Shown: positions 12,815-55,436 of the stretch, in pieces
Position numbering within the stretch: the first letter of the stretch is position 1
Layout of the letters: every line of letters starts with the position of its first letter
Assembly: GCA_016235805.1 (NCBI GenBank)
Contig: JACRIY010000056.1
Location: 1-64,000, forward strand
Direction: 5' to 3'
Length of the DNA: 64,000 nucleotides
DNA from: Rhodocyclales bacterium
GTDB taxonomy: Bacteria; Pseudomonadota; Gammaproteobacteria; Burkholderiales; Rhodocyclaceae
Made by a program: the position numbers and the translations under genes
Notes under the pieces: model-generated
Seen by the model: only the letters and a program-made list of their open reading frames with translations
Database searches by the model: none
What the model was told of the DNA's origin: nothing

Positions 12815-13861
12815 TTGACTGCATCCAGCAATACTTCATCACCGCTCACCTACCGCGATGCCGGTGTCGATATCGATGCCGGCGACGCGCTGGTCGAACG
12901 CATCAAGCCGGCGGCCAAGCGCACCATGCGCCCCGAAGTGCTGGCCGGCATCGGCGGCTTCGGCGCGCTGTTCGAGATTTCGAAGAAGTATCGCGAACCG
13001 GTGCTGGTTTCCGGCACGGACGGCGTCGGCACCAAGCTCAAGCTGGCCTTCCAGTGGCACCGTCACGACACCGTCGGGCAGGACCTGGTGGCGATGAGCG
13101 TCAATGACATCCTGGTGCAGGGCGCCGAACCGCTGTTCTTCCTTGATTACTTCGCCTGCGGCCGGCTCGACGTCAATACCGCCGCCACCGTGGTCGAAGG
13201 CATCGCGCGCGGCTGCGAACTGGCCGGCTGCGCCCTGATCGGCGGCGAAACCGCGGAAATGCCCAGCATGTATCCGGACGGCGAATACGACCTCGCCGGC
13301 TTCGCCGTGGGCGCCGTGGAGAAGTCGCAGATCATCGACGGCCGCTCGATCCAGGCCGGCGACGTGGTGCTTGGACTGGCCTCCTCTGGCGCGCATTCCA
13401 ACGGCTATTCGCTGATCCGCAAGATCATCGAGCGCGCTGCCCCCAATCTGGAACTGGACCTGGGCGGCGTCGCGCTGGCCGATGCGGTGATGGCGCCGAC
13501 GCGCATCTACGTCAAGTCGCTGCTGGCGCTGATCCAGGCGCTGCCGGTGAAGGGCATGGCGCACATCACGGGCGGCGGCCTCACCGAGAACATCCCGCGG
13601 GTGCTGCCCGAGCACCTGACCGCCGTCATCGATCGCGGCAACTGGACGCTGCCGCCGCTGTTCCGCTGGCTGCAGAAGGAAGGCCAGGTCGCCGACGCCG
13701 AGATGCATCGCGTCTTCAACTGCGGCATCGGCATGGTGGTGATCGTCGCCAAGGCCGACGCCGGCGTCGCCATGCAACTGCTGGCGGCGGCGGGCGAGCA
13801 GGTGCACCACATCGGCCTGATCGAAGAACGCCAGGGCCGCGCGCAGACCATCGTCGCCTGA
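12815..13861 (+). CDS. purM: Phosphoribosylformylglycinamidine cyclo-ligase (AIR synthetase)
   Basis: The product is 348 aa, close to the usual 345. A TTG start is chosen, with AAGGA seven bases upstream, giving [19 protein letters not shown] as in relatives; the frame is open further upstream without similarity. Motifs: [31 protein letters not shown], and [13 protein letters not shown]. It makes AIR from FGAM in purine synthesis. The stop runs straight into a long inverted-repeat hairpin. Confidence 0.95.
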
Positions 13862-18094: not shown

Positions 18095-19078
18095 ATGCCG
18101 TTCGCGCTCGCCCTGGTGGCCTCGGCCCTGCTGCATGCCGCCGCGCTGGTCGGGTCCGGCTGGACGTTGCCCGGCACCCATGAGCCGGAACCGCCGCAGA
18201 CCATCGAGGCGGTGCTGGCCAAGCCTCCGCTGCGCAACGAGCCGGCGCCCGAGGCCAAGCCCTTGCCAAAACCGCCTGCCGCCCGGCCGCGTCCGGCCAC
18301 GACGGCGCAACCCGTGCTGGCGGCCGACAAGCCGGCGCCCGCCCTCCCGGTCGAGCCGCCGCCCGTCGTCGAGCCGGCTCCAGTCGCCGTGGCGCCAGCG
18401 CCGACTCCCGAACCTGCCGCGCCGGTGCCGGCGAAAACTGCTTTGCCGGGCAAGGGCAGCCTGCGCTACGTGATCACGCGCGGCGAGGGCGGCTTCGTCA
18501 TCGGCCAGGCGATCCACAGCTGGGAGCATGACGGCTTCCGCTACCGGCTGAAAAGCCTGACCGAGACCACCGGCCTCGCCGCCGTGTTCAAGCCGGCGCA
18601 GGTGTTCCAGAGCAGCCAGGGCGACGTGACCGAGGACGGCCTGCGCCCGCGCGAATTCCGCCACGAACGCTCCGGCGGCATCGACACGGCGAGTTTCGAC
18701 TGGCTGGGCCGCACCGTTACCTATGCCGGCCGCCGCCAGTCCGTCGTCGGCGGTAGCCAGGACATGCTGTCCATGTATTACCAGCTGGTGCTGCTGTCAC
18801 CCATTTCCGGCCCGCTGGAAATGCCGATCGCCACCGGGCGCAAGCTGGAGAACTATCGCTTCGAGGTGCTCGGCGAGGAAGTCCTGGCAATGAAGTCGGG
18901 CGAGCGTCGCGCGCTACGCGTCAAAACGCGTAGCGGCGACGACACGATAGAACTCTGGCTGCGCATCGGCCCGGACGCCGCCGCACGCGGCCTGCCCCTG
19001 AAAATCCGCTTCATCGACCGCAAGGGCGAGATCTTCGACCAGGTTGCGGACGAGCCGGAAGCAGCGCAAACGCAATGA
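18095..19078 (+). CDS. DUF3108 domain-containing protein with TonB-like proline-rich linker
   Basis: The product is 327 aa. An N-terminal hydrophobic segment (ALALVASALLHAAALVGSG) anchors the protein. A Pro/Ala-rich stretch at about 35-120 spans the periplasm as in TonB. The C-terminal 200 residues are a DUF3108 beta-rich domain (GEGGFVIGQAIHSWEHDGFRY...). The function of DUF3108 is unknown; it is periplasmic in family members. A reverse copy of the dispersed repeat (18385-18408) falls in the proline-rich linker. Confidence 0.8.
   Translation: MPFALALVASALLHAAALVGSGWTLPGTHEPEPPQTIEAVLAKPPLRNEPAPEAKPLPKPPAARPRPATTAQPVLAADKPAPALPVEPPPVVEPAPVAVAPAPTPEPAAPVPAKTALPGKGSLRYVITRGEGGFVIGQAIHSWEHDGFRYRLKSLTETTGLAAVFKPAQVFQSSQGDVTEDGLRPREFRHERSGGIDTASFDWLGRTVTYAGRRQSVVGGSQDMLSMYYQLVLLSPISGPLEMPIATGRKLENYRFEVLGEEVLAMKSGERRALRVKTRSGDDTIELWLRIGPDAAARGLPLKIRFIDRKGEIFDQVADEPEAAQTQ
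18385..18408 (-). repeat. Dispersed repeat copy in the DUF3108 gene
   Basis: CGCCGTGGCGCCAGCGCCGA followed by CTCC. It matches the reverse orientation of the family and encodes VAPAPTP within the flexible linker. Confidence 0.65.
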
Positions 19079-19109
19079 AACCGCAATTCCAACTCTTGGT
19101 AAAGCCGGC

Positions 19110-20564
19110 ATGAACGACGACAGGAAACCGGGCCGCTCGCAGCGGCCCACGCGCAGCGCAGGCGGTGGCGCGCGACGGGGTGCAGCGGCATCGCGGCCGG
19201 GCACCGCGGATGGCCGCGAGGTGCCGGCCACGGACGGACTTTCCGCCGACCTGCTGAATGCGGCGGTCGCCGCCACGGCGCAATTGCTGACCTTCACCCA
19301 GCCGGCCGATGCCGCGCTGTCAGCCTTCTTCCGCGCCCGCCGCAGCGGCGCGAAGGACCGCGCCTTCATCGCCGAGACGGCCTATGCCGTGCTGCGGCGC
19401 AAGCGCCTGCTGGAGCGGCTGGCGGCCTGCGGTCCGAACCTGGAACCGGCTTTCCTCGCGCCGGGCGCAACCCCCAAGCGCGCAACCAAGCCGTCCGGCC
19501 CGCGCCGCATTTCGCCGCGTGAACTGGTGCTGCTTTCGCTGTCGCGCGTGCGCGGCATGTCGCAGCGCCAGCTCGAAGGCGCGCTGATGCCGGGCGAGGC
19601 CGAATGGCTGGCCGAGATCCGGCGCCAGCCGGAACCGGAACTGACGCTGGCCGAGCAACTGGATTTCCCCGACTGGCTGGTCGAGCGCCTGGCGCCGCGC
19701 ATGTCGGCCGAGGACCTGATGGCGCTGGCGCGCGCGCTGAACACGCCGGCACCGCTCGACCTGCGCGTGAACACCCTGAAGGCCGAGCCGGCGGCGGTGA
19801 TCGCGCGGCTTGCCGCCGACGGCATCGTCGCCACGCCGACGCCTTTCTCGCCGCTCGGCCTGCGCCTCAAGACCAAGCCCTACCTGGCCAAGCACCCGGC
19901 CTACCTCGACGGCAGCATCGAGGTGCAGGACGAGGGCTCGCAACTGCTGGGTTTCCTGCTGCAGCCCAAACGCAGCGAGATGGTGGTGGACTTCTGCGCC
20001 GGCGCCGGCGGCAAGACGCTGATCCTCGGCGCCATGATGCGTTCCACCGGGCGCCTGTATGCATTCGACGTATCCGACAAGCGCCTGGCCAAGCTCAAGC
20101 CGCGCGCCGCGCGCGCCGGCCTGTCCAACGTGCATCCGGCCTGCCTCTCGGGCGAAAACGACGCGCGCGTCAAGCGCCTGCAGGGCAAGGTCGACCGCGT
20201 GCTGGTCGATGCGCCCTGTTCGGGTCTGGGAACCCTGCGCCGCAATCCCGACCTCAAGTGGCGCCAGTCGCCGCAGAGCGTCGATGAGTTGTGTGCCAAG
20301 CAGGCCGCGATCCTCGCCGCCGCAGCCAAGCTGCTGCGGCCGGGCGGGCGCCTGGTGTATGCGACCTGCAGCATCCTCGCCGAAGAGAACGAGGACGTCG
20401 TGAATGCCTTCCTCGCCGCCCATGCCGACTACCGCCGCCTGTCGGCGCGCGAGGTGCTGGCGGCGCAGGGCATCGCCATCGACTGCGGCGAGGACATGCG
20501 CCTGGCGCCGCAGACGCACGGCACCGACGGCTTCTATGCCGCGGTACTGGAACGGGCCAAGTGA
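19110..20564 (+). CDS. RsmB/NOP family RNA (cytosine-C5) methyltransferase
   Basis: About 484 aa from ATG 19110; the frame is open upstream, but family similarity begins after the basic, disordered N-tail. The N-terminal helical part (19260-19800) resembles the RsmB NusB-like domain. The SAM fold has DFCAGAGGKTLILGAMM, and the two catalytic cysteines appear in DAPCSGLGTLRRNPD and YATCSI. It methylates C5 of cytosine in rRNA or tRNA. Which base is modified cannot be decided; true RsmB (16S m5C967) is one option, a paralogue another. Confidence 0.85.
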   Translation: MNDDRKPGRSQRPTRSAGGGARRGAAASRPGTADGREVPATDGLSADLLNAAVAATAQLLTFTQPADAALSAFFRARRSGAKDRAFIAETAYAVLRRKRLLERLAACGPNLEPAFLAPGATPKRATKPSGPRRISPRELVLLSLSRVRGMSQRQLEGALMPGEAEWLAEIRRQPEPELTLAEQLDFPDWLVERLAPRMSAEDLMALARALNTPAPLDLRVNTLKAEPAAVIARLAADGIVATPTPFSPLGLRLKTKPYLAKHPAYLDGSIEVQDEGSQLLGFLLQPKRSEMVVDFCAGAGGKTLILGAMMRSTGRLYAFDVSDKRLAKLKPRAARAGLSNVHPACLSGENDARVKRLQGKVDRVLVDAPCSGLGTLRRNPDLKWRQSPQSVDELCAKQAAILAAAAKLLRPGGRLVYATCSILAEENEDVVNAFLAAHADYRRLSAREVLAAQGIAIDCGEDMRLAPQTHGTDGFYAAVLERAK

Positions 20565-43810: not shown

Positions 43811-46591
43811 TCAGGCGGCGATCGCGTGGTCGCGCATGAGGTAGTCGGCGAATTCGATCGCCGGCATCGGGCGCGAGAAATAGAAGCCCTGCGCTTCCCC
43901 GCAGTGTTGGTGGCGCAGGAAGTCGACCAGTTCCTCGTCCTCGACGCCCTCGGCGATGGTCTTGAGGTTGAGGCTGGCGGCCATCTGGATGATGGCGCGG
44001 ACCATCAGCGCGTTGTTCGGCTGGTTCTCCATGTCGCAGACGAAAGAGCGGTCGATCTTCAGCTTGTCCACCTTGAAGCGGGTCAGGTAGGACAGGCTGG
44101 AGTAGCCCGTGCCGAAGTCGTCGATCGATAGCATCACACCCAGCGACTTCAGGCGCTGCACCGTGAGCAGGACCTGTTCCGTATTCTGGATCAGGATCGA
44201 CTCCGTCAGTTCGAGTTCCAGGCTCGCGGGCGGCAGTCCGGATTCCTCCAGCGCCGTCCGCACGCTGGCTTCGAGGTCGCCGCGGGTGAATTGTATGGCC
44301 GAGACGTTGACGGCGACGACCAGATGCGGCAGTCCCGACATGCGCCATGCCGCCGCCTGGCGGCAGGCTTCGCGCAACACCCAGTCGCCGATCGGCACGA
44401 TCAGTCCGCTGTCTTCTGCGACGGTGATGAACTGGTCCGGCGCCAGTTCGCCGCGTTGCGGGTGGTTCCAGCGGATCAGCGCCTCGGCGCCGACCACGGC
44501 GCCGGTGACGAGATCGATCTGGGGCTGATAGTTGAGGCGGAACTCGCCGCGGTGCAGCGCGTGCAGCAGGCCGACACGGATGCGATGGTGCTCGACGGCG
44601 TCGATGTTCATCTGCTCGGTAAAGAAGCTGTAGGCGTTGCGTCCGGTTTCCTTGGCGTGGTACATCGCGGTATCGGCCCGCTTCAGCAGCGTTTCGATGT
44701 CGCGCCCGTCATCGGGATACACGGCGATGCCGATCGAGGTCGAGGTGGATAGCTCGTTGCCCTCGATTTCGAAGGTGGCCGAGAGCGTCTCGAGGATTTT
44801 TTCCGTGACAGCGGTGATGGCATCGGTATTCTGGACGTTGCCCAGGACCAGCAGGAACTCGTCACCCCCCTGGCGGCAGATCGTGTCGCAGTCCCGCGTG
44901 CATTCACTCAGTCGGCTGGCGACGGCCTGCAGTAGCAGGTCGCCGACGGCATGGCCGAAGGAGTCGTTGATGGTCTTGAAATTGTCGAGGTCGAGAAAGA
45001 TTAGCGCGGTCTTGCTGCCGGCCCGGTCGGCGTAGGCAATGGCCTGGTTCAACCGGTCGATCCCCAGCCGGCGGTTGGGCAGGCCGGTGAGCGGGTCGTG
45101 GTAGGCCATGAACTCGATGCGCGCCTCGGCCTGCTTGCGATCGCTGATGTCGAGAAAGCCCATGATGTAGTTGCATGGCCGGTTTTCGGCGTCGCGGATC
45201 ACGCTGACATGGAGCCAGGCCGGATAGGTTTCGCCGTTGCGCCGCTGGTGCAGGACTTCGCCCTGCCAGTTGTCGGCATCCTTCAGCTCGTGGAGCATCC
45301 GGCGCAACAGTTCGGGATCGCTGAGCGAGGCGTTGAGCAGGTGCATCGTCTTGCCGCCGACTTCCTCCGCGTCATATCCGGTCATGCGCGTGAAGGCGCC
45401 GTTGGTCGACAGGATATGCATCTCGGCATCCGCGATCACGATGCCTTCGCAGCTGCTTTCGAATACCTTGGCGGAGAGGCGGAGCTTTTCCGCGCTGTCG
45501 CGCAGCGAGGCCTTTTGCAGCCCGATGTGGGTTTGCAGCAGATTGAAGCTGTGGAGGAGTCGGCGTATCTCCTTGCTGCCCTCCGACAGCAGCGGCTGCA
45601 ATTCCTTGCGCCCCTGCGTCATTTCGTCGAGCGTGCTGGCGGCACGGCTGAGGGGCTTCAACTGGCCGTTGAGGTAGAGCCAGAGCAGGAAGGGAATCAG
45701 CAGCGACGACAGGGTTGCGCCGAAGCGGATCTTCTCCTGGATCGAATTGATGGACTCGAAGGCGACGCTGGCGGGCAGGGTCGACAGCACCAGCCAGCCG
45801 GTGGCCGGTATCCGCATGGCCGAACTGAACTGATCCACGCCGCTCGCGTTAGCTACCACGCCGAAGCCGACGAAGCCGCTGCGATAGCGGTCGAACATCC
45901 GATCCGATCCCTGTTGCGGCAGGGGTTTCAGCACCAGGTCGGGATCGCTGGACGCGATGAACACGTTGTCATCGAGGGATACCACATGGAGCTTTTCGTC
46001 GGCGCGGAGTTGCCCGGTCACCGCCTTGCCAAACAGGTCGTCGCCGTGAATGCTGATGGTGCCGACCAGCACGGCTATGACGCGTCCGGCGCCGTCCTTG
46101 ATCGGAGCACCCATCTGCAGCACCGGTTGCGCGCCGGACGGATCGCGGGCGGGCCTGCCCACCACCGGCGCGCCGCGGCCGACGATTTCACGGATCAGAA
46201 GGGGCGATGCGGCATCGGGTCCGCTTGCTTCCCCCGGGCGAGGGCGGGGCGCGAGACGCGACCCCGTGGCCGAGACGACCGCAAGGCCGCCGCCGAACAT
46301 CCCGGATCGCGGGCGGTGCTCGGCGAGGAAACGATCAAGGCGGGCCGAGTCGCCCAGCCAGCCCGGGTTCAGTCCTGCGGCGGCTTCGGTAACGAAAGTC
46401 AGCCGTTCCCGCGAGGCGTCTTCGATGCTTTCGGCGATCCGGTGCAATCGGGAAAACTGCGTGGTTTCCAGTACCGACTGGAACTCGGCACGCACCTCCC
46501 GTTCAAGTTTGTAAGCCAGCACGATCACCGTGCTGACGAACAGCAAGGCGGTGAACAGTGTCAGCTTCGACTTGAGACTGAGGAAGTTCAT
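43811..46591 (-). CDS. Cache-PAS-GGDEF-EAL membrane protein
   Basis: 926 aa. TM1 is near 12-28; a double-Cache-like periplasmic domain of about 240 residues follows, then TM2 around 290-310, a linker, a PAS domain (VFESSCEGIVIADAEMHILS), GGDEF (RQGGDEFLLVLG) and EAL (GAEALIRWNHP, LSIDDFGTGYSSL, LKIDRSFV). Both active sites look complete, so it may be bifunctional in c-di-GMP turnover. It is a single-gene unit. Confidence 0.92.
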   Translation of the reverse strand: MNFLSLKSKLTLFTALLFVSTVIVLAYKLEREVRAEFQSVLETTQFSRLHRIAESIEDASRERLTFVTEAAAGLNPGWLGDSARLDRFLAEHRPRSGMFGGGLAVVSATGSRLAPRPRPGEASGPDAASPLLIREIVGRGAPVVGRPARDPSGAQPVLQMGAPIKDGAGRVIAVLVGTISIHGDDLFGKAVTGQLRADEKLHVVSLDDNVFIASSDPDLVLKPLPQQGSDRMFDRYRSGFVGFGVVANASGVDQFSSAMRIPATGWLVLSTLPASVAFESINSIQEKIRFGATLSSLLIPFLLWLYLNGQLKPLSRAASTLDEMTQGRKELQPLLSEGSKEIRRLLHSFNLLQTHIGLQKASLRDSAEKLRLSAKVFESSCEGIVIADAEMHILSTNGAFTRMTGYDAEEVGGKTMHLLNASLSDPELLRRMLHELKDADNWQGEVLHQRRNGETYPAWLHVSVIRDAENRPCNYIMGFLDISDRKQAEARIEFMAYHDPLTGLPNRRLGIDRLNQAIAYADRAGSKTALIFLDLDNFKTINDSFGHAVGDLLLQAVASRLSECTRDCDTICRQGGDEFLLVLGNVQNTDAITAVTEKILETLSATFEIEGNELSTSTSIGIAVYPDDGRDIETLLKRADTAMYHAKETGRNAYSFFTEQMNIDAVEHHRIRVGLLHALHRGEFRLNYQPQIDLVTGAVVGAEALIRWNHPQRGELAPDQFITVAEDSGLIVPIGDWVLREACRQAAAWRMSGLPHLVVAVNVSAIQFTRGDLEASVRTALEESGLPPASLELELTESILIQNTEQVLLTVQRLKSLGVMLSIDDFGTGYSSLSYLTRFKVDKLKIDRSFVCDMENQPNNALMVRAIIQMAASLNLKTIAEGVEDEELVDFLRHQHCGEAQGFYFSRPMPAIEFADYLMRDHAIAA

Positions 46592-47012
46592 GGCGGCGAA
46601 ATTTCGCTCCGCCCTCCGCCAGGCGCGGTCGACACCCCTGCGGCGCGCAACCCGGACTCAGCCGGCATGAAACCATGGCGGCGGTCGGTGGCGAAGCGGA
46701 CGGTGCTGGACGGGTGGAGCGACTGACGTTCCATTGGGTGGGCGGGCGGGTTCTAGTGCGATCAATTTCGTGGCGTGCAAGAAACATCGACGCGGCAAGT
46801 CGGCCATGACGTCATCCTGCGCTGGTTGAGTTCACGAGCCGGAGCCGGAGTCCTTGGAGAAAATGCTACGCGCCACGACAGCCCCGGGACAGGAGAAATG
46901 TCACAGATTTCAACTAAATGGTTGTATGGCGGCGTTGTCCTGACCCGTTGTCCGGGCCTTCGCAAAGCCGCACCGTGCGCGGCGCCGCAGCACGAAAGTG
47001 AGCGGCTTGCTG
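46592..47012. other. Non-coding gap
   Basis: 421 bp between the GGDEF/EAL gene and the trihaem cytochrome gene. Short open frames exist on both strands, but none has a credible ribosome-binding site or a recognisable product. No clear terminator hairpin was seen. Confidence 0.5.
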
Positions 47013-47633
47013 CTAGCGCGCCAGGGGCGATCCGGACCCGGCTGCCGTGCTCGTTTGCAGTCGCAGGCGACGGGTTTCGCCCAGCGCGCCCTTGATGCGC
47101 AACAGGCTGCCGTCGAGCGCCGCCTGTCCCAACCACCACTGGTAGTCGGGCGACTGGTGGGCGAGCCCGAGGCGCAGGTCGCGCAGGTTCTCGTCGCGCA
47201 GCGTGGCGAACAGTTTCTCGATGCGCGCCAGTTCCTCGCCGGAGGTTTCCTCGCGTGCAGCCGCCACCAGCGCCTCGGCTTCGCGCCGCTTCATTTCGCC
47301 CAGTGCCTGGCTACGCTGCGCGGCGGCGTTCTGTTCCGTGGTGTAGCGCGGCGAATGGCAGGCACGGCAGCTCTCGGTCGCCGCCTCGCGCGCCTGTGCA
47401 CGGGTGCGTTTGCCAGCGTAATGCGTCGCCGTCGGCGCCTGCGCCTCGACGATATGGCAGCCGGCGCAGTCCGGTGAGCGCCGGCGCTCGCGGCCCGCCT
47501 CGATCCGGGCAATGACGCCATGCTTGGACAGCGCCCAGCTGCGTTCGGCGGAGCCCGCGTGGCATTCCACGCAGGTTTTGCCGAGCGCCGGAAGTGCGAG
47601 CAGCCACAACAGGAACAGGCCCAGTGCGCGCAT
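47013..47633 (-). CDS. Trihaem c-type cytochrome, partner of the octahaem protein
   Basis: 206 aa. Signal peptide 1-18 (ending ALG), then three CxxCH sites at residues 21, 56 and 89. A long helical C-terminal region follows (EMKRREAEALVAAAREETSGEELARIEKLF, QSPDYQWWLGQAALDG) that resembles the C-terminal helices of hydroxylamine-oxidoreductase-type cytochromes. The ATG overlaps the octahaem stop (TGATG). It is probably a redox partner or subunit of that enzyme. Last gene of the operon. Confidence 0.8.
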   Translation of the reverse strand: MRALGLFLLWLLALPALGKTCVECHAGSAERSWALSKHGVIARIEAGRERRRSPDCAGCHIVEAQAPTATHYAGKRTRAQAREAATESCRACHSPRYTTEQNAAAQRSQALGEMKRREAEALVAAAREETSGEELARIEKLFATLRDENLRDLRLGLAHQSPDYQWWLGQAALDGSLLRIKGALGETRRLRLQTSTAAGSGSPLAR

Positions 47634-48970
47634 CAGTTGTGCTTGCGGTTGTGAACCGTGTACTCGCCGTCCATCCACAAGGGGCGTGGGTCGGGTCGCG
47701 GGCCACGCGCCTTGCCGCGCAGGATTTCGGCTTGTGCAGTGATGGATTTCTCGGCATGCACCATGGCTTCGTGGCCTTTCTTTACCAGTTGCGGCGCGCC
47801 GTGGGCCGCGGCCTTGTAGCTGCCGAGGTTGGCGAAGTACCACATCTCGAAGTAGTCGCGTTCGATAGTCGAGACGTTGTAGAAGCTCGACGCCTGTCCC
47901 TCGAAGAAGCCGATGCGTTCCTTCGGAAACCAGGCGTCCATCCAGTCGGTCGGGTAGGGCGGGCGCTCGCCGGCGGCGGGGTAGAAGGCCTTTTCGCTGC
48001 GCAGCTCGCGCAGCAGGCGTTCCGTGCGGTTCAGTCCCTGCCAGGCTGTGGCGCGCTCGTGGTCCATCGCCGTCAGTTGCCGGCGCGAGAAGTCTGCGTC
48101 GTGGCAGTCGGTGCAGACCTCTACCCAGCGTTCGCGCTTGACCTTGTTCTCGGCGGTGTTGGGATTCACCTGGCGCAGGCCGAATTGCCAGATCGACTTG
48201 TCGGCCACGATGTGTTGGCCGTTTCGCATGTGGCAGTAGGCGCAGGTCGGCACGGTGTAGTTGCCCTTCACCAGCGGCTTGCTCCAGTCGGTCTTCGGCG
48301 CGTCGGCGAGGTAGCGCTTGCCGTGGGCCGAACCGTAGTAACTCTCGTCGTCAGGGTGCGGCGGGCCGCTGTGGCAGGTGGTGCAGGCCTCGGCACGGCG
48401 CGCCTCGGCGGCGTCGAAGCGGTGCCTTGTGTGGCAGGAGTCGCACTTGGTCGCCACGGAGTGGCATTGCACGCAGGCCGTGGTTTCCGCCTTGGGCTTG
48501 TCGGCGAAATGCTTGCTGTCGGTAGCGCGCTCCATGGCCAGCACGTGGCTGGGGAAGCCGTACTGCTTCTCCGACTGGAATGCGTCGTGCTGCACGGCAT
48601 GGCATTCCGCGCAGACCTTGGGCGTCGGCATGCGCAGCTTGCGGTGGTCGGCGCCGTGGCAATCCGGGCAGGCCACCGGCGCGCGATTGGCCGGCTTGCT
48701 GTGGCGGCTGTCGCGCCAGTCGGCGACGATGCCCGGCGTCAGCGCCTCGTGGCAGGCGATGCATTCGGCGGCGGGAAATACGCCTTCGACGCTGGCGACC
48801 GGCTGGTAGAAGCGGTCCGGATCCCAGTAGCCCTGCACCGGGTCGGGCTGCCATTCGCGCGAATACAGGCCGCTGCCGGCGCCGCCCTTGCTCCAGTCGA
48901 CCCAGGCCATGCCCGCCGCGATGCCGGCAAGCGAGAGCAGTACCGGGATCAGCAGCCAACGGCGGGACAT
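47633..48970 (-). CDS. Octahaem HAO-like multihaem cytochrome c
   Basis: 445 aa. An N-terminal signal-anchor (WLLIPVLLSLAGIAAGMAW) is followed by eight CxxCH motifs at residues 70, 101, 120, 166, 176, 196, 243 and 286. The CDSCHTRHRFDAAEARRAEACTTCH arrangement is that of the hydroxylamine oxidoreductase family. A haem-free helical C-terminus contains RDYFEMWYFANLGSYKAAAHG, the region where oxidative HAOs carry a haem-crosslinking Tyr; whether that Tyr is present cannot be judged by eye. Candidate reactions are nitrogen- or sulfur-compound redox chemistry in the periplasm. Confidence 0.85.
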   Translation of the reverse strand: MSRRWLLIPVLLSLAGIAAGMAWVDWSKGGAGSGLYSREWQPDPVQGYWDPDRFYQPVASVEGVFPAAECIACHEALTPGIVADWRDSRHSKPANRAPVACPDCHGADHRKLRMPTPKVCAECHAVQHDAFQSEKQYGFPSHVLAMERATDSKHFADKPKAETTACVQCHSVATKCDSCHTRHRFDAAEARRAEACTTCHSGPPHPDDESYYGSAHGKRYLADAPKTDWSKPLVKGNYTVPTCAYCHMRNGQHIVADKSIWQFGLRQVNPNTAENKVKRERWVEVCTDCHDADFSRRQLTAMDHERATAWQGLNRTERLLRELRSEKAFYPAAGERPPYPTDWMDAWFPKERIGFFEGQASSFYNVSTIERDYFEMWYFANLGSYKAAAHGAPQLVKKGHEAMVHAEKSITAQAEILRGKARGPRPDPRPLWMDGEYTVHNRKHN

Positions 48971-49155
48971 CAGCGATCCCGGCGGTGGCGTGCGACGGCG
49001 CGTGCGACGCCGATGCCGGCGAGCAGCAGGAAGGGTAGCAGCGTGAGTCCGGGTATCGAGTCGTCGGTGGTGCAGACGAAATCGAAATTCACGGCATGGA
49101 CGTGGGCCCAGGCCGGGTTGGCGATGGCGGCGAACAGCAGGGCCAGGCGCTTCAT
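48970..49155 (-). CDS. Small secreted/membrane-anchored protein of the HAO-like operon
   Basis: 61 aa. Signal peptide (1-17, AWA) then a short segment HVHAVNFDFVCTTDDSIPG with one Cys. A C-terminal transmembrane helix ends in arginines (LLPFLLLAGIGVARAVARHRR), giving a sorting-signal-like outline. It overlaps both neighbours (ATGA upstream, TGATG downstream). Function unknown; its position suggests assembly or anchoring of the cytochrome. Confidence 0.65.
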   Translation of the reverse strand: MKRLALLFAAIANPAWAHVHAVNFDFVCTTDDSIPGLTLLPFLLLAGIGVARAVARHRRDR

Positions 49156-51536
49156 GTCGCCAGCCTCGGCGCCCGGGGTGCAATAAGGGCTTGCGGCGCC
49201 GCGCGCCAGGCGCGCCAGGTCTTCCAGTCGGCCAGGCGTTGCTCGGCCAGCACCGTGCGCGCGGCGCGGCGGCCGGCGGCGGCGGCGGTGACGATCAGGT
49301 CGGCGCCATGCACGGCATCGCCGCCGGCGAAGATGCGCGGGTGGGAGGTACGGCCATGGGCATCGATCTTGATCGCGCCGTATTCGGTGGCGACGCCGCC
49401 GGCCTCCAGCCAGTAAGGGGCCGCCGGCTGCTGGCCGAAGGCGAGTATCACCGCGTCGCAGGCGACGCTCTGCAAAATCGCCGTATCGCCGGCGCCGACT
49501 TTTACATTTACCGCGCGCACCGAGGCCTCGCCTTCGATGGCGACCGGCGTGTGCTCGAAGAGGAAGCGCACGCCTTCCTCGATGGCGGCGATGCGCTCGT
49601 GCGGATTGGCGCGCAGTTTTTCCGCCGTGCCGCGATAGGCGATGGCCACGCTCGTCGCGCCGTCGCGCAGCGCCACTCGTGCGCAGTCCATCGCCGTGTC
49701 GCCGCCACCCAGCACCAGCACGCGTTTTCCCGCGAGGGTGCCGGCGCTGGCGCCGCTCTTGTTCTGGTTGATGCGACCCAGATAGGACAGCGCGTCATCG
49801 ACGCCGAACAGTTCGCGTCCGGGTAGCGCAACCTCGCGCGCCTGGCGCGCGCCGAGGCCGAGGAAGACCGCCTCGTTGTCGTCGCGCAATTGCAGGAAGC
49901 GTTCGGCATCGACCTCGACACCCAGTTCGAAGCGGATGCCGGCCTGTTCCATGAGTATCCGGCGCCGGTCGAGGGCGCGCTTGTCGAAGCGGAAGGGCGG
50001 CAGGCCGCTGGACAGCATGCCGCCGACCTGCGCGTCGCGGTCATACACCGTCACGTTCCAGCCGGCGCGGTTCATCGCCTCGGCGAAGGCCAGTCCCGCC
50101 GGGCCGGCGCCGATCACCGCGGCATCCTTGTCCAGGCGCCTGGTCGGTGCGAGTGTCGGGCGCCAGCCGCGGGCCAGCGCTTCCTCGGTCACTGCATGTT
50201 CGATGGCGCCGATCGCCACTGCCGCCTCGCCCTGGCGCACGCGGGCGCAGGAGCCTTCGCAGAGGCGGTCCTGCGGGCACAGCGCGCCGCAGAGTTCGGG
50301 CATCGGCGAGGTAGAGGCCATGATTTCGGCGGCGGCTTCGATTTTTCCCTTGGCGGCCTGCATCAGCCATTCCGGAATCCGGTTGTGCAGCGGGCAGGCC
50401 GTGCGGCAGGTGGGCTCGCCGCAGTCGAGGCAGCGTGCGGCCTGGGTCTGGATCTCGGCCAAGGGCAGGCGTTCGGCGCAGGCATCGATGCGCGGCAGTT
50501 CGGGGGCGGCGACGCGGCGCAGCAGGTGGGTCGCGTCCTGGCGCAGGGCCGGACGCAGGAAGTTGCGCACATCGCGGATTTCCAGCGCGTCGGTGGGGCA
50601 GGACACCACGCAGCGGGCGCAGCCCATGCAGTCTTCGAGGCCGGTGACGCGGCCGTTGGCCTTGCCCTGCTTCCACACCGGGATGCCCATGTCGCAGGCC
50701 TGCTCACAGCGGCCGCAGTCGATGCAGCGCTTCTCGTCCATCTTCACGTCGTAGAAGCCGGCGTGGTTGAGCAGGCCGAAGGTGGCGCCGAAGGGGCAGA
50801 GGAAGCGGCAGTAGGCGCGGTTGCCGACCAGCGGCGCGATGAAGAAGGTGCCGAAGTAGGTGGCGGCGACCAGTCCGTAGAAGCCGCTGACGAAGGAAAT
50901 CGTCCAGGAGTTGGGCGGGTACTGCGTCACCACCAGCACGCCGACGTAATAGACGAAGAACACCCACTTGATGTGGCGCAGTTTCCACGCCAACTCGGAG
51001 CGCGGCGAATTCTCGCGGAAGGCGAAACCCACCGTCTCGCGGATGCCGACGCAGGGGCAGCCGAAGCCGCAGATCACGCGCCGGCCGAAGAGGAAGACCA
51101 GCGCCAGCACCAGGAAGAAAGTCAGCGTACCCGGCGTGTGCAGCGAGGGAAACACCGGCTGCGACCAGAGGTAGCCGATGTAGGGCTCGAAGAAGGGATT
51201 GAGCCAGGGCACCAGCCACCACAGGCCGGTGACCACGCCGACCAGGATGATCAGGCGGCGCCGCGTGTAGGCGTTCTTTTCGGCGACGATGCGCCAGGTG
51301 CCGAAGGCCAGGATGATGGCGTACTCGGTGTAACGGTTGAGCCAGATCGGGCTCTCGAACATGAACAGCCAGGTCTCGTTGAGCCAGCCGACGAAGGCCA
51401 GCGTGAAGGCAAGAAGCGAGAGCAGCTTGACCGGCCAGCCGTAGCGCGAGGGCAGGGTGTCCTGTTCGCCCGCCGTGACGCAATGCGGCGCGCGCGGGAA
51501 GCCGCCGATGGGCTGGTCAAGCGTTATTGAGGCCAA
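49152..51536 (-). CDS. Membrane polyferredoxin fused to glutamate-synthase-type FAD/NAD(P) oxidoreductase
   Basis: About 794 aa from a TTG with AAGGA upstream; no ATG fits. Residues 35-250 hold about five transmembrane helices and NapH/CcoG-like motifs CGFGCPCVG (156-) and CRFLCPFG (243-). Two [4Fe-4S] ferredoxin motifs lie at 271-281 and 303-313. A GltD-type module follows: CLDCGEPTCRTACP (369-381), FAD loop AAVIGAGPAGLAF and NAD(P) loop VLVLGGGDTAMD. It probably moves electrons between NAD(P)H and a periplasmic or quinone partner. A dispersed repeat copy (49479-49503) is inside. Confidence 0.82.
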   Translation of the reverse strand: MASITLDQPIGGFPRAPHCVTAGEQDTLPSRYGWPVKLLSLLAFTLAFVGWLNETWLFMFESPIWLNRYTEYAIILAFGTWRIVAEKNAYTRRRLIILVGVVTGLWWLVPWLNPFFEPYIGYLWSQPVFPSLHTPGTLTFFLVLALVFLFGRRVICGFGCPCVGIRETVGFAFRENSPRSELAWKLRHIKWVFFVYYVGVLVVTQYPPNSWTISFVSGFYGLVAATYFGTFFIAPLVGNRAYCRFLCPFGATFGLLNHAGFYDVKMDEKRCIDCGRCEQACDMGIPVWKQGKANGRVTGLEDCMGCARCVVSCPTDALEIRDVRNFLRPALRQDATHLLRRVAAPELPRIDACAERLPLAEIQTQAARCLDCGEPTCRTACPLHNRIPEWLMQAAKGKIEAAAEIMASTSPMPELCGALCPQDRLCEGSCARVRQGEAAVAIGAIEHAVTEEALARGWRPTLAPTRRLDKDAAVIGAGPAGLAFAEAMNRAGWNVTVYDRDAQVGGMLSSGLPPFRFDKRALDRRRILMEQAGIRFELGVEVDAERFLQLRDDNEAVFLGLGARQAREVALPGRELFGVDDALSYLGRINQNKSGASAGTLAGKRVLVLGGGDTAMDCARVALRDGATSVAIAYRGTAEKLRANPHERIAAIEEGVRFLFEHTPVAIEGEASVRAVNVKVGAGDTAILQSVACDAVILAFGQQPAAPYWLEAGGVATEYGAIKIDAHGRTSHPRIFAGGDAVHGADLIVTAAAAGRRAARTVLAEQRLADWKTWRAWRAAPQALIAPRAPRLAT
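49479..49503 (-). repeat. Dispersed repeat copy in the polyferredoxin fusion gene
   Basis: CGCCGTATCGCCGGCGCCGA followed by CTTTT-type end, in frame (VKVGAGDTA). The encoded VGAGDTA equals the peptide encoded by the copy in dnaE2. Confidence 0.75.
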
Positions 51537-52521
51537 GGGTGTTTTCCTTGATGGCGTTGCCTTCGGTGGGATAACCCAGTTCGCGCCAGGCGAGTATCCC
51601 GCCGCGCACCACGCGCAGGCCACTGAACCCGTGCTTCGCCAGCAGGCGCGCGGCCTGTCCCGAGCGCACCTGGGTGCGGCAGATCAGCACGATGCCGTCC
51701 TTGCGCCAGGAGGCGAGCTCATCGACGCGTGCCGGCAATTCATTCAGGGGCAGGTTGATGGCGCCGGGCACATGGCCGGTCTCGCCCTCGAAATCCTTGG
51801 CCTCGCGCACGTCGATCACGGCGATGCCGCCTTCCGTCTGCAGGGCGCGCAGCATCTCCGGCGTGATCATCAGGCCGGCCTTGAACTGGCGCACCAGGCG
51901 CGGCAGGAACATCAGCGCCGCGGCCACGGCCAGCGCCAGCATGCCGTTGCGGATGGCGTTGGCGTCGCCAGTCAGCGCCGCGCGGCCGGCATGGCCGAGC
52001 CAGGCATAGGCCAGGGCGCCTGGCAGCATGCACACGGCCGAGGCCAGCGCGTAGGCGCCGAGCGGAATGCGCGTCAGGCCCAGTGCGTAATTCACCACGT
52101 TGAACGGAAACAGCGGCACCAGGCGGACGAAGGCGACGAAGCGCCAGCCTTCGGCTTCGACGCCCTCGATCAGCTGCTTGAGCCGGCCGCCGGTCTTCTG
52201 CGCCACCCATGCGCCGGCGAGGTGGCGGGCGACGAGGAAGGCCAGCACCGCGCCCAGCGTGGCGCCGGCCAGGCTGTAGAGCGCACCGGGCAGGATGCCG
52301 AACAGGGCGCCTGCGGCCAGGGTCAGCACCGAGCCGGGCAGGAACAGCACGGTGCCGGCGGCATAGATGGCGATGAAGAAGACCGGCGCCCACCAGCCAG
52401 CGGAGGCCAGCCATTGCTGCAGGGCTTCCTGCGAGAACTGTCCGCGGTTGGCGAAGGCCAGCGCCAGGCCGGCGACCAGTGTGACCAGCAGCGCGGCGCG
52501 AAACAGGCTAGCGGGCTTCAT
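51517..52521 (-). CDS. TVP38/TMEM64 membrane protein fused to a rhodanese domain
   Basis: 334 aa. The N-terminal 220 residues have about five helices and the VTT-family motif FLPGSVLTLAAGALFG and VRLVPLFPFNVVNYALGLTRI. The C-terminal 110 residues are a rhodanese: AVIDVREAKDFEGETGHVPGAINLP with active-site Cys in ICRTQVRSG. It could handle sulfane sulfur at the membrane. It overlaps the sterol desaturase gene by 14 bases and the fusion gene by 20, so it sits inside one operon. Confidence 0.88.
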   Translation of the reverse strand: MKPASLFRAALLVTLVAGLALAFANRGQFSQEALQQWLASAGWWAPVFFIAIYAAGTVLFLPGSVLTLAAGALFGILPGALYSLAGATLGAVLAFLVARHLAGAWVAQKTGGRLKQLIEGVEAEGWRFVAFVRLVPLFPFNVVNYALGLTRIPLGAYALASAVCMLPGALAYAWLGHAGRAALTGDANAIRNGMLALAVAAALMFLPRLVRQFKAGLMITPEMLRALQTEGGIAVIDVREAKDFEGETGHVPGAINLPLNELPARVDELASWRKDGIVLICRTQVRSGQAARLLAKHGFSGLRVVRGGILAWRELGYPTEGNAIKENTLGLNNA

Positions 52522-53371
52522 GGCTCGCCTCGGGACCGTGGCCGATCGCATAGCCCTCGCCGGCATTGACGAAGGGGATCACCAGCATGCCGGTGAGGCT
52601 GACGCAGCGCGGATCGCCGGTCAGGCCGGTGACGCCGATGTCCATGCTCTCCTGCGGCAGGCGGGCGGCGGGGCGGTAGGTGCCGAACAGGCGGTCCCAG
52701 ACCGAGAGATTGAAGCCGAAATTGCTGTTGGCCTCGGCGTTGTCCGTCGAGTGGTGCACCCGGTGCATGTCCGGGGTCACCAGCAGCGCGCGCAAGCCGG
52801 CATCGATAGCGCCGGGAAGTTTGACGTTGCCATGATTGAACATCGCCGTGGCGTTGAGCAGAACTTCGAACACCAGCACGGCAGCGGCGGGTGCGCCGAT
52901 CACGGCGATCACCGAGACCTTGATAAGCATCGACAGGATGATCTCGATCGGATGGAAGCGAGCACCCGTGGTGAGGTCGTAATCCGGATCGGCGTGGTGC
53001 ACCTGGTGCAGGCGCCACAAGGCCGGCACCGCGTGGAACATCACGTGCTGCAGGTAAATGGCGAAGTCCATGGCGACCACGGCAAGCACCAGCGCCAGAG
53101 GCTCGGGCAAGGCCATGTTGTTGAGCAGGCCCCAGCCGTGCTCGGCGGCATAGGCGGCGAAGCCGACGGCGGCCAGCGGGAAAGCCAGTCGCAGCAGCAC
53201 GGTGTTGAACACGACCAGGCCGAGGTTGGCGCTCCAGCGCTGCAGGCGCGTGTGAAGGCGGACGCGTCGCGGCGCGGCGATTTCCCAGAGCGCCATCAGG
53301 GCGAACACGCCGAAGAAGGCGCCCAGGCGGATGACCGGTTCGTTTGCCAGCGCAAACTCGTTGAACGCCAT
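52508..53371 (-). CDS. Sterol desaturase / fatty acid hydroxylase family protein
   Basis: 287 aa with about four membrane segments. Di-iron histidine clusters: QHVMFH, LHQVHH, FNHGN and MHRVHHS, as in the FA_hydroxylase family. Substrate unknown (lipid or sterol/hopanoid). It is the first gene of the leftward operon and starts beside the palindromic promoter region. Confidence 0.88.
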   Translation of the reverse strand: MAFNEFALANEPVIRLGAFFGVFALMALWEIAAPRRVRLHTRLQRWSANLGLVVFNTVLLRLAFPLAAVGFAAYAAEHGWGLLNNMALPEPLALVLAVVAMDFAIYLQHVMFHAVPALWRLHQVHHADPDYDLTTGARFHPIEIILSMLIKVSVIAVIGAPAAAVLVFEVLLNATAMFNHGNVKLPGAIDAGLRALLVTPDMHRVHHSTDNAEANSNFGFNLSVWDRLFGTYRPAARLPQESMDIGVTGLTGDPRCVSLTGMLVIPFVNAGEGYAIGHGPEASHEAR

Positions 53372-53419
53372 GCCAGACCTCCTCGGATGCCGCTTGCGCC
53401 CGAAAGGGGAAGTGGCTAC

Positions 53420-53449
53420 TATTCAAATAATCAACCAAGCAGTTGAATA
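53420..53449. promoter_or_regulatory. Inverted repeat TATTCAA-N16-TTGAATA, candidate ArsR-family operator
   Basis: AT-rich dyad in an otherwise GC-rich 161-bp divergent promoter region, between the sterol-desaturase-led operon and the dsrE-like gene. ArsR-family regulators commonly bind such dyads, and one is encoded at 54275. Confidence 0.6.
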
Positions 53450-53532
53450 ATACGAAGGCCGCCGCGGGATGTCAAGCGGCGATTTCCAGCCGGGCCGATC
53501 GCCCGGTTCTGCAAAGACCGGAGGCAAAGAAA

Positions 53533-53886
53533 ATGGCAAAGCATCTGTTCATACTCAACGATCCGCCCTACGGCACCGAACGTAGCTACAACGCCCTGCG
53601 CCTCGCGATTTCGCTGGCCAAGGTGGAGGGCGAGCAGGTCCGGGTGTTCCTCATGGGCGACGCGGCCGCGTGTGCCAAGGCCGGGCAGAAAGTGCCCCAG
53701 GGCTACTACAACGCCGGCGACATGCTGGGCATGGTCGCGCGGCGCAATGCCGAGGTCGGCGTCTGCGGCACCTGCATGGATGCGCGTGGCATTGCCGACG
53801 GCGAACTGGTGGCGGGCGCACTGCGCGGTACGCTGGCCCAACTGACCGAATGGACGGTCTGGGCCGACAAGATCCTGGTGTTCTGA
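53533..53886 (+). CDS. DsrE family sulfur-relay-like protein
   Basis: 117 aa from ATG 53533 with GGAGG upstream. HLFILNDPPYGTERSYNALRLAISL is the DsrE-like nucleotide-free Rossmann start. EVGVCGTCMDARGI has two cysteines placed as in persulfide-carrying DsrE/TusD-like proteins. It may carry or receive persulfide sulfur. First gene of a rightward unit with 53900 and the ArsR-rhodanese gene. Confidence 0.85.
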   Translation: MAKHLFILNDPPYGTERSYNALRLAISLAKVEGEQVRVFLMGDAAACAKAGQKVPQGYYNAGDMLGMVARRNAEVGVCGTCMDARGIADGELVAGALRGTLAQLTEWTVWADKILVF

Positions 53887-53899
53887 TGGGGCGCCGGTC

Positions 53900-54220
53900 A
53901 TGAGCCCGGTCAAGGTCATATCGCAGCAGCCTCCCGGCGGCCGTTGCGGCCTCTATACCCGCTATGCGCAAGCCATCGAAGCACTCACCGGCTGGCCGCA
54001 CAGCGTGCTGCACACCGAGACCCGCGATGCGCACGGCGAGGGATTCCCCAGCCTGGTCATCCGTGGTGTGTCCTTGCAGCCGGAAGACGCCTTCATCCTG
54101 ACTCCGGAGGAAATTTGCAGCCATCTTGCGGGGCTGGACATTGCGCCCGCGACGCTCGACGCCCTGATGGCACGCCTGCGCACGATCCACGACGACTTCA
54201 TGAAGCCGCTGGCGGGCTAG
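53900..54220 (+). CDS. Conserved-looking hypothetical protein
   Basis: 106 aa, soluble, no signal. One Cys near the N-terminus (PPGGRCGLYTR) and one later (EEICSHL). I do not recognise the family. It sits 13 bases after the DsrE gene and 54 bases before the ArsR-rhodanese gene, so it probably belongs to the same sulfur-related unit. Confidence 0.6.
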   Translation: MSPVKVISQQPPGGRCGLYTRYAQAIEALTGWPHSVLHTETRDAHGEGFPSLVIRGVSLQPEDAFILTPEEICSHLAGLDIAPATLDALMARLRTIHDDFMKPLAG

Positions 54221-54274
54221 ACCGGTACAATCCAAGGACGCGTGGGCAGGCTAACGACGAGGAGTGGATTGCGG

Positions 54275-54934
54275 ATGTCAGGCGGAAATTTCAAGCAGGA
54301 CGTGTATGCCCAACTGGCAAGAGTGGCCAAGGCCGTCGGTCACGCCAACCGGCTGGAGCTGCTCGAGTTCGTGGCCCAGGGGCCGCGCGGCGTCGACGAA
54401 CTGGCGCACATGACCCATCTGTCGGTCGCCAACGCCTCGAAGCACCTTCAAGAGCTGCGCCAGGCCGGCCTGGTCCGGGCGCGCAAGGAAGGCGTGCGGG
54501 TGTTTTACGAAGTGGCGGGACCCGATGTGGTCGATCTGCTCGGCGCCTTGCGCACCGTGGCCGAAACGCGCGTCGCCGAAGTTTCACAACTCCTGCGCAC
54601 CTACATCACGGCGCGCGACGACCTCGAACCGATACCGGCGGAAGAACTCATGGAGCGCGCCCGGCTCGGCCTGGTCACCGTGCTCGACGTGCGTCCGCCC
54701 GAGGAATTCGCCTCGGGCCACTTGCCGGGCGCCGTGAATATCACCCTGGAAGCCCTCGGCGGCCACCTCAAGCGCCTGCCCAAGGGGCGCGAGGTCATCG
54801 CCTACTGCCGCGGGCCCTACTGCCTGCTGTCGGTGGATGCGGTGGCCCTGTTGCGAACCAAGGGTTACAAGGCGCGTCGCCTGGAGGATGGCTTTCCCGA
54901 GTGGAAGGCCGCCGGCATGCCGGTCGAAGCCTGA
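54275..54934 (+). CDS. ArsR-family regulator fused to a rhodanese domain
   Basis: 219 aa from ATG 54275 (TTG 54269 is also possible), with GGAG upstream. The winged helix spans residues 10-85 (ANRLELLEFVAQGPRGVDELAHMTHLSVANASKHLQELRQAGLV). The rhodanese domain follows (VTVLDVRPPEEFASGHLPGAVN) with active-site CRGPYC. Such fusions are likely sensors of sulfane sulfur that release DNA when persulfidated. It probably controls the divergent operons at 53371 and 53533. Confidence 0.9.
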   Translation: MSGGNFKQDVYAQLARVAKAVGHANRLELLEFVAQGPRGVDELAHMTHLSVANASKHLQELRQAGLVRARKEGVRVFYEVAGPDVVDLLGALRTVAETRVAEVSQLLRTYITARDDLEPIPAEELMERARLGLVTVLDVRPPEEFASGHLPGAVNITLEALGGHLKRLPKGREVIAYCRGPYCLLSVDAVALLRTKGYKARRLEDGFPEWKAAGMPVEA

Positions 54935-54956: not shown

Positions 54957-55436
54957 CTAAAGGATTTCCACCACCCACTTGGTCACCGTGCCCGTGGCGT
55001 GTGCGCACTGGCCGCCGCGCGCGGTGTCGAAGGCCTGGTATTCGGCGGCATTCCACATGTCATAGGTGCGGCCGGTGAACTGCTGTTGCAGTTCGCGGCA
55101 GGTGACGCCGCCGAACTCGGCGCGGAAGCGCTCGGTGAGTTCCCTCGCCTTCATGAAGTTGTTGATGTAGCGCCCCTTGTCGAGCTTGTCGCGGTCGCGG
55201 CCGAACTTCGCGCTCAGCGCCAGCAGTCCTCCGGTGAGCGCGCCGCAGACGCCTTCGCCGAGCAGGCCGCCGCCGCCGGACAGGCCATGGCTGGCTTTCA
55301 CCGTCTGGTCGTCGATGATGCCGACGGTTTCCTGCACCGTGGCGAGGACGCACTGCGGGCAGCAGCCGTAGTCGAGTTCGTATTGAGTGGCCTTGCGGTA
55401 GGCCTCATCGGCCAGCGCCTTGCGGTCGGTATCCAT
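54957..55436 (-). CDS. C_GCAxxG_C_C family redox protein
   Basis: 159 aa from ATG 55436. YGCCPQCVLATVQE, GVCGALTGG, VTCRELQQQ and GGQCAHATG give the spaced-cysteine pattern that names this family. The function is unknown, possibly redox or metal related. The promoter side has a TATTAG-N6-CTAATA dyad just upstream. It is convergent with the ArsR-rhodanese gene. Confidence 0.8.
   Translation of the reverse strand: MDTDRKALADEAYRKATQYELDYGCCPQCVLATVQETVGIIDDQTVKASHGLSGGGGLLGEGVCGALTGGLLALSAKFGRDRDKLDKGRYINNFMKARELTERFRAEFGGVTCRELQQQFTGRTYDMWNAAEYQAFDTARGGQCAHATGTVTKWVVEIL

Follow-up and report, generated by a model that had tools for sequence, protein, structure and literature searches.

An octahaem cytochrome of the HAO superfamily with its own polyferredoxin-GltD partner and a candidate operator for a proposed ArsR-rhodanese repressor

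Introduction

Most work on HAO-family enzymes has been done in nitrifiers and anammox bacteria. In the genome of a Rhodocyclales bacterium (GenBank assembly GCA_016235805.1), positions 1 to 64,000 of contig JACRIY010000056.1, referred to here as the window, contain an operon for an octahaem HAO-like cytochrome that faces the gene of an ArsR-type regulator fused to a rhodanese. Such a locus raises the questions of which way electrons pass through the octahaem, which compound it converts and why its genes lie beside those of sulfur-handling proteins. The octahaem belongs to a clade of its own with an altered active site, it has a private partner in a polyferredoxin fused to a GltD-type flavoprotein, and a conserved palindrome lies at the promoter of the operon. 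We tentatively propose, at somewhat less than an even chance, that the operon is under a sulfur-sensing ArsR repressor and feeds electrons from NAD(P)H to a periplasmic octahaem reductase, whose substrate is more likely a nitrogen oxide than a sulfur compound.

Structure and conservation of the locus

Six overlapping genes, all of them open frames, occupy 47013-53371 on the minus strand, and three further open frames lie opposite on the plus strand, in agreement with the initial annotation. Named domains score above the Pfam cut-offs in six of the nine (octahaem, polyferredoxin-GltD, VTT-rhodanese, FA_hydroxylase, DsrE and ArsR-rhodanese).

47013-47633, minus strand: trihaem c-type cytochrome of 206 amino acids (aa), three CXXCH motifs; Pfam matches all below cut-off
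47633-48970, minus strand: octahaem HAO-family cytochrome, 445 aa, eight CXXCH motifs; PF13447, E 6.5e-36
48970-49155, minus strand: 61-aa membrane protein; no Pfam family
49152-51536, minus strand: NapH-like membrane polyferredoxin fused to a GltD-type FAD/NAD(P) domain (Pfam); TTG start assumed
51517-52566, minus strand: VTT (TVP38) membrane protein fused to a rhodanese with the loop CRTQVRS (Pfam)
52508-53371, minus strand: FA_hydroxylase (di-iron membrane hydroxylase) family protein; PF04116, E 1.8e-30
53421-53448, no strand: candidate operator palindrome with an extra half site, beside the -10 hexamer of the operon promoter
53447-53475, minus strand: sigma70-type promoter TTGACA-17-TATTAT (11 of 12 matches, by pattern), proposed for the operon
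53533-53886, plus strand: DsrE-family protein; PF02635, E 5.9e-22
53900-54220, plus strand: 106-aa protein; no Pfam family
54275-54934, plus strand: ArsR-type helix-turn-helix fused to a rhodanese with the loop CRGPYC (Pfam); proposed repressor

The most likely starts of the DsrE and ArsR-rhodanese genes are 53533 and 54275, respectively, rather than the first possible start codons. The next gene beyond ArsR-rhodanese (54957-55433, minus strand) encodes a redox-type protein with the motif C_GCAxxG_C_C, and the start of the window (G000:C34:21-2129) holds a 714-aa frame with weak matches to the NapA model (molybdopterin oxidoreductase-like).

A scan of genome contigs with the octahaem gave 99 relatives, of which the best 80 were used for locus counts. 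By title these loci belong to Sulfuritalea, Rhodocyclales, Thiobacillus, Chromatiales, Thiodiazotropha, symbionts of Lamellibrachia and Escarpia, other gammaproteobacteria, two alphaproteobacteria and Magnetococcales. A neighbour was counted when present within 9 kb, with only those loci in the denominator that have enough flanking DNA. The polyferredoxin accompanies the octahaem in 62 of 62 loci, the companion cytochrome (trihaem in the window) in 69 of 73 and the ArsR-rhodanese in 40 of 46; this co-location across loci and genomes excludes a chance grouping of the genes. Counted at any distance, ArsR-rhodanese lies upstream in 53 loci, with divergent orientation in 49 and on the strand of the octahaem in 4. 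VTT-rhodanese (35 of 52) and FA_hydroxylase (32 of 48) are also frequent, while DsrE (19 of 46, many of the matches only 25-31% identical) and the 106-aa protein (5 of 46) are optional neighbours. The six-gene neighbourhood, which the initial annotation suggested looking for in other genomes, is thus a conserved unit, which the octahaem relatives mostly keep. That annotation knew of no described system with this set, and a search of the open-access literature likewise turned up no description of this gene block. A search of plasmids gave only three distant cytochromes (28-30% identity). Downstream of the operon, locus L008 encodes the arsenosugar biosynthesis radical SAM protein ArsS (12481-13761, TIGR04167) and a TIGR04283 glycosyltransferase (18588-20033), with similarity clusters in 14 and 12 of the 80 loci, respectively. 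Such downstream genes, present in some loci, were the reason for considering an arsenic role.

Fold, active site and phylogeny of the octahaem cytochrome

The window octahaem has a Multi-haem_cyto domain (PF13447, 124.4 bits against a cut-off of 21.9) and an N-terminal hydrophobic stretch, by inspection a putative anchor. All 81 family members have eight CXXCH motifs. The profile of the clade matches Kuenenia HAO (PDB 4n4j) with an E value of 1.8e-86, which places it in the HAO fold family. An AlphaFold model (mean pLDDT 63) gave 11 PDB matches at E <=0.001 (E 2.6e-13 to 1.6e-4, TM 0.35-0.43), each to an HAO-family or a multihaem protein, and is used as fold support only. Seven histidines outside the CXXCH motifs, which we take to be haem ligands, align with Kuenenia HAO, as does the active-site histidine, and the pocket histidine is invariant in 24 rows.

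The surroundings of this histidine are altered. HAO residue numbers and roles are used here, and in HAO an Asp-His pair has a catalytic role. In the window octahaem the Gly-x-Asp-His of HAO is replaced by the motif CHSGPPHPD, with the pair Pro204-His205. Asp-His reads Pro-His in 81 of 81 octahaems, whereas the Asp is kept in all 19 comparators. The cross-link Tyr is absent as well: its column is a gap in 23 of 23 clade rows, while the Tyr is present in HOX, 6t5e, HDH and seven HAO-type loci. A YKxxAH motif is found in 77 of the 81 octahaems, and only three of these have a Tyr within the next 20 residues, outside the cross-link motif. The cross-link Tyr has been associated with oxidative HAOs and its absence with reductive ones, a His at the key site instead of Tyr being described as the reductive form (PMC12758564, excerpt). 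The missing Tyr therefore points to a reductive enzyme. The invariant His400, near the position of the missing Tyr, fits the His of the published reductive form, although this correspondence is our own reading. Taken together, the two changes argue against hydroxylamine oxidation.

Phylogenetic analysis with clade members, HAO relatives and PDB pieces as rows placed the 23 clade rows in one group (100/99, stem 0.82), separate from the HDH/HOX, HAOr, nitrifier-type HAO and ONR/OTR-like rows; epsilon-HAO, BOGUAY_0691 and Desulfobacterota sequences were left out of the tree. The comparison proposed in the initial annotation is thereby answered by a separate clade, for all groups named there except epsilon-HAO. 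The deep joins are weak (90/54, 91/86) and long branches were flagged (HAOr, HDH, L102, L103 and the companions); the joining of HAOr, itself a long branch, to nitrifier-type HAO rows at 88/89 is flagged as possibly false. In a published tree Magnetaquicoccus inordinatus falls near HOX/HDH (PMC12758564, excerpt); this organism is the source of our locus L079, whose octahaem may or may not be the protein in that tree. The HDH model NF052343 gives 206.5 bits for the window octahaem and 237.4 bits for that of L012, both under the cut-off of 900. By this score, the separate clade and the altered active site, a canonical HAO or HDH is ruled out. In the one-contig genome G034 (C1:2093512-2095023) the octahaem gene is in pieces with one internal stop, and the adjacent fusion gene reads through.

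The polyferredoxin-GltD fusion and the companion proteins

The distribution of the fusion was examined in 274 genomes of the class of the window (Gammaproteobacteria, GTDB), with up to six candidates per genome scored for the octahaem profile and up to three for the fusion profile, so that a miss is possible. The octahaem clade profile finds an HAO-family match of any kind in 42 genomes, and 13 of these, from 12 genera, were assigned as carriers of the clade (G000, G034, G067, G083, G099, G102, G122, G147, G211, G215, G219, G233 and G265). Nine have one full-length match (750-842 bits); the other four were assigned by judgement, because their matches are partial (G211, G233 and G265 with 408, 325 and 175 bits) or in pieces (G034). 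The list of carriers was fixed before the search for the fusion. The fusion profile (E <=1e-100) matches 132 of the 274 genomes, and the match runs from the first positions through the polyferredoxin half only in the same 13 carriers. In the other genomes it aligns to the GltD half and starts at position 306 or later, except in G212, G198 and G192 (259, 283 and 297). The fusion and octahaem genes lie close together on the same contig in all 13 carriers. The fused NapH-GltD protein is thus the private partner of the octahaem, and the fusion read from the window alone in the initial annotation, whose domains Pfam finds, has gained a distribution of its own.

Cysteine motifs for several 4Fe-4S clusters are invariant in 12 rows of the fusion. 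It scores 69 bits (residues 170-349) with the NapH/MauN model TIGR02163 and 395.5 bits with TIGR01318, below the respective cut-offs of 213 and 482.95. In the wider set of relatives, the match at L062 and L065-L081 covers the polyferredoxin half only (277-340 residues; 157 in L073, at a contig end).

The trihaem protein is a shortened relative of HAO. The profile of its family matches Kuenenia HAO 4n4j with an E value of 1.3e-39, which rules out an unrelated cytochrome and amends the initial annotation, where the three CXXCH motifs had been correctly counted and the HAO origin had not been seen. Its C-terminus carries the conserved HQSPDYQWWxGQxALDGxLLRIK. Among whole open reading frames at 73 loci, the companion has five haem motifs in 53, four in 4 and three in 16, so that the three-haem form of the window is a shortened one. 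Judged by title or kinship, 15 of these 16 come from betaproteobacteria, with L015, close to the end of its contig, as the odd one out.

By inspection, the 61-aa protein has a signal-like N-terminus, a mature start of His-Val-His and a C-terminal hydrophobic segment. At many other loci the slot between fusion and octahaem is filled by a cytochrome with one or two CXXCH motifs and a C-terminal hydrophobic segment, and at further loci by a haem-less protein of about 60-90 aa with a mature N-terminus starting with His (by inspection). One two-haem form has a weak match to PF09626, above the cut-off; a one-haem form has none. Short motifs shared with the slot cytochrome suggest that the 61-aa protein is its haem-less remnant. 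Small membrane proteins in this slot at L012, L021, L025, L034, L036, L054 and L058 have, by inspection, a mature N-terminus of His-His-Thr-x-Asp-His, which might bind metal.

Promoter, operator and the ArsR-rhodanese protein

The intergenic regions of the window and of 45 of the 80 loci, in which a divergent ArsR-rhodanese gene lies 20-600 bases from the operon, were compared. The palindrome TTCAA-N(6-12)-TTGA[AT][TA] is present in 33 of these 46 regions (200 shuffles: mean 0.1, maximum 1), with the consensus TTCAA-N8-TTGAAT and a usual spacing of 8. A sigma70-like promoter pattern is present in 23 regions (shuffles: mean 0.19, maximum 2), and a looser pattern finds an operator-like element after each of the 23 sites (shuffles 0); these counts come from related loci, patterns chosen after the sequences had been seen and single-base shuffles. 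In many regions TTGACA and the start codon of arsR overlap, although the hexamer is retained in the window, whose arsR begins at another place. The window promoter (53475-53447, minus strand) is the best, with 11 of 12 matches, of three promoter-like sites in 9 kb, and the candidate operator TTCAACTGCTTGGTTGATT (minus strand, 53429-53447) adjoins its -10 hexamer. The genome as a whole has 18 strand matches to the palindrome pattern with at most one mismatch (9 forward and 9 reverse, against 2 and 0 for the control). A second copy (46909-46927) lies between the end of the operon and a GGDEF-EAL gene (43811-46591, minus strand), upstream of the latter. The name of this gene is based on its sequence and on the related L003:2391-5453, whose similarity cluster occurs close to the octahaem in 10 of 80 loci.

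A palindromic operator at the controlled promoter is a trait of sulfane-sulfur ArsR repressors, and in this the 33 regions with a candidate agree. The two conserved cysteines in the ArsR domain of SoxR, sHdrR, BigR and SqrR, the last a further repressor of this kind, are not found. Outside the last 110 aa, 38 of 52 ArsR-rhodaneses have no Cys, nine have one and five have two, while the rhodanese loop reads CRGxxC in 50 of the 52. The window protein scores 37.1 bits with the BigR model, against a cut-off of 155. Sensing through a Cys pair of the BigR/SqrR type is ruled out by this distribution, and we infer that the operon is repressed by an ArsR protein that senses sulfur through its rhodanese. 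The initial annotation had spoken of a sulfur-sensing regulator unit; the conserved palindrome at the operon promoter beside the ArsR-rhodanese gene strengthens the regulatory part of that claim, and binding and sulfur sensing are predicted properties.

Sulfur and nitrogen genes of the carrier genomes

The genomes and loci compared here are related, and the p-values below take no account of shared ancestry. The dsrA gene is over cut-off in 10 of 13 carriers and 76 of 261 other genomes (p 7e-4). The remaining three carriers have a dsrB-like match at a contig start (G000), sub-cut-off dsrA pieces (G219) and a weak match (G067). NapA is over cut-off in 9 of 13 carriers against 27 of 76 dsrA-positive non-carriers (p 0.03), or 8 of 10 when only dsrA-positive carriers are taken (p 0.013). 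Large NapA fragments occur in carriers G000 and G067, and sub-cut-off pieces also in three non-carriers (G153, G109 and G098). NarG is over cut-off in two carriers. The cytochrome d1 family (PF02239, NirS and relatives; E <=1e-50 in non-carriers) is present in 10 of 13 carriers, all of which also pass 1e-50, and in 31 of 76 dsrA-positive non-carriers (p 0.03). Either NapA or cytochrome d1 is found in 12 of 13 carriers against 38 of the 76 (p 0.005), and in 9 of the 10 dsrA-positive carriers (p 0.02). The distribution of dsrA and of NapA/cytochrome d1 rules out a purely sulfur or a purely nitrogen assignment. The initial annotation had labelled the surroundings of the octahaem as sulfur-handling; because the carriers are enriched for genes of nitrate and nitrite respiration, this label fits the regulation better than the substrate.

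Proposed mechanism and alternatives

In the proposed pathway, electrons would pass from NAD(P)H to FAD, through the iron-sulfur clusters and the membrane part of the fusion, and on to the periplasmic haems, and the octahaem would reduce its substrate at the single haem that has no second protein ligand. The likeliest substrate would be a nitrogen oxide or intermediate (nitrite, NO or hydroxylamine), in sulfur oxidisers that respire nitrate or nitrite; it is preferred to a sulfur compound because the carriers combine sulfur-oxidation genes with the enrichment of NapA and cytochrome d1. The ArsR-rhodanese protein would sit on the operator at the promoter and be released once its rhodanese loop takes up sulfane sulfur on its two cysteines, and the module would thus run in the presence of reduced sulfur. 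Anatomy, conservation, private partner and palindrome come directly from computation, whereas the steps built upon them would fall in certainty from NAD(P)H feeding to the reductive direction, then to release by sulfane sulfur and last to the nitrogen-oxide substrate.

Several points weigh against this proposal. Substrate and activity are predictions from sequence, and because the genomes and loci are related to one another, the counts and p-values are indicative only. In alphaproteobacteria and Magnetococcales the polyferredoxin has no GltD half fused to it (no search for a separate GltD gene was made), so that the core can do without NAD(P)H. Where the octahaem has Pro, the characterised reductive HAOr has retained the Asp, and its activity therefore does not simply carry over. 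FA_hydroxylase, an oxygen-dependent type of enzyme, is not accounted for by nitrogen-oxide reduction, nor are VTT-rhodanese and DsrE. SoxB is not enriched (8 of 13 carriers against 104 of 261 others, p 0.15), and cytochrome d1 among dsrA-positive genomes is not significantly so (7 of 10 carriers against 31 of 76 non-carriers, p 0.10). In carrier G083, a genome of 97% completeness, NapA over cut-off and a cytochrome d1 match are both absent; no search was made for NirK, NrfA or norB.

The same electron path could instead serve to reduce a periplasmic sulfur compound (polysulfide, tetrathionate, sulfite or thiosulfate), with VTT-rhodanese and DsrE moving the sulfur product or substrate. Rhodanese domains in two genes, DsrE in 19 of 46 loci, dsrA in 10 of 13 carriers and an active site specific to the clade are consistent with this, as is the related Beggiatoaceae octahaem BOGUAY_2386, which reduces tetrathionate and nitrite in vitro (PMC6449678, excerpt). 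However, nitrate and nitrite respiration genes are enriched in the carriers even when compared with other dsrA-positive genomes, and in Hyphomicrobium the loss of sulfur-responsive ArsR repressors also shifts transcripts of nitrate respiration (PMC12423496, excerpt), so that the regulation does not fix the substrate; we regard sulfur-compound reduction as rather unlikely. A flow in reverse, from a periplasmic sulfur or nitrogen compound oxidised by the octahaem to NAD(P)+ reduced by the polyferredoxin-GltD protein, which would supply autotrophic sulfur oxidisers with reductant, seems less probable again. It would suit the 12 of 13 carriers with dsrA or SoxB over cut-off (the thirteenth, G219, has dsrA pieces), and GltD-type proteins such as DsrL can run in both directions. 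Nevertheless, NapH-type proteins normally send electrons to the periplasm, most candidate donors have a midpoint potential too high for NAD(P)+ without extra energy, and the Asp with its catalytic role is missing. The cross-link Tyr, tied to oxidative HAOs (PMC12758564, excerpt), is missing too.

Two multihaem proteins and an anchored cytochrome would also suit simple electron conduction without small-molecule catalysis, for instance in defence of the periplasm against reactive sulfur or oxygen species or as a supply line for FA_hydroxylase, which is near in 32 of 48 loci and belongs to a family that needs electrons. This is the least probable of the alternatives and a decidedly poor candidate, given that the pocket His invariant in 24 rows and the eight haem sites in 81 of 81 members are as in the catalytic HAO fold, and that FA_hydroxylase was not found in 16 of the 48 loci. 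A bolder form of the nitrogen-oxide proposal, which we consider a long shot, is that the octahaem is a sulfane-sulfur-derepressed HAO-family enzyme whose active site is new (Pro-His, no P460). In denitrifiers that oxidise sulfur, it would spend NAD(P)H on removing the reactive nitrogen formed from sulfide and nitrite or NO, possibly mixed species of sulfur and nitrogen such as nitrosopersulfide. If true, an enzyme under a rhodanese-based DNA-binding sensor would directly connect the sulfur cycle with the nitrogen cycle.

Comparison with known systems

The clade is conserved in sulfur oxidisers that include metagenome-assembled genomes labelled as animal symbionts (Lamellibrachia, Escarpia and Thiodiazotropha hosts), Magnetococcales and bacteria of the Thiobacillus type. 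Having an NAD(P)H-side partner of its own and a proposed repressor of the sulfur type, it would reveal how nitrogen oxides or a sulfur intermediate are dealt with in the periplasm of sulfur oxidisers, and it yields a testable pathway, a private two-gene marker (fusion and octahaem) and a defined candidate operator.

With HAO of nitrifiers and anammox HOX and HDH, the octahaem shares the HAO fold family, eight CXXCH motifs and the active-site His; it differs in its separate clade, the lack of the cross-link Tyr and the change of Asp to Pro. It also differs from HAO in that none of the ten window genes scanned matches the c554 family above cut-off. Kuenenia HAOr (Kustc0458) likewise has the HAO fold without the cross-link Tyr, and we know of no NAD(P)H-side protein for it. 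HAOr keeps Asp-His, whereas the octahaem has Pro-His and an HAO-derived companion with three to five haems; the redox partner encoded with HAOr is Kustc0457 (PMC12485887, excerpt). BOGUAY_0691, the orange octahaem of Guaymas Beggiatoaceae, is also an octahaem HAO-like protein of a sulfur oxidiser, with activity towards nitrite, hydroxylamine and hydrazine; it has 511 aa and lies near napAB and NADH dehydrogenase genes in another gene set (PMC6449678, excerpt).

The repressors SoxR, sHdrR, BigR, YgaV and HlyU sense sulfane sulfur through two conserved Cys (PMC12423496, excerpt). They share with the ArsR-rhodanese protein the ArsR domain, an operator at the controlled promoter and sulfur-gene neighbours; their Cys pair is in the ArsR protein, whereas ArsR-rhodanese has the CRGxxC loop (50 of 52) and mostly no other Cys (38 of 52). 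The membrane polyferredoxin half of the fusion resembles the NapGH quinol dehydrogenase, and its FAD/NAD(P) half resembles GltD/AegA-type flavoproteins, of which DsrL is a relative. In the window protein both halves are in one chain, which among the 274 genomes is found only with the octahaem. The octahaem system is filed as a new variant inside the HAO superfamily and not as an HAO.

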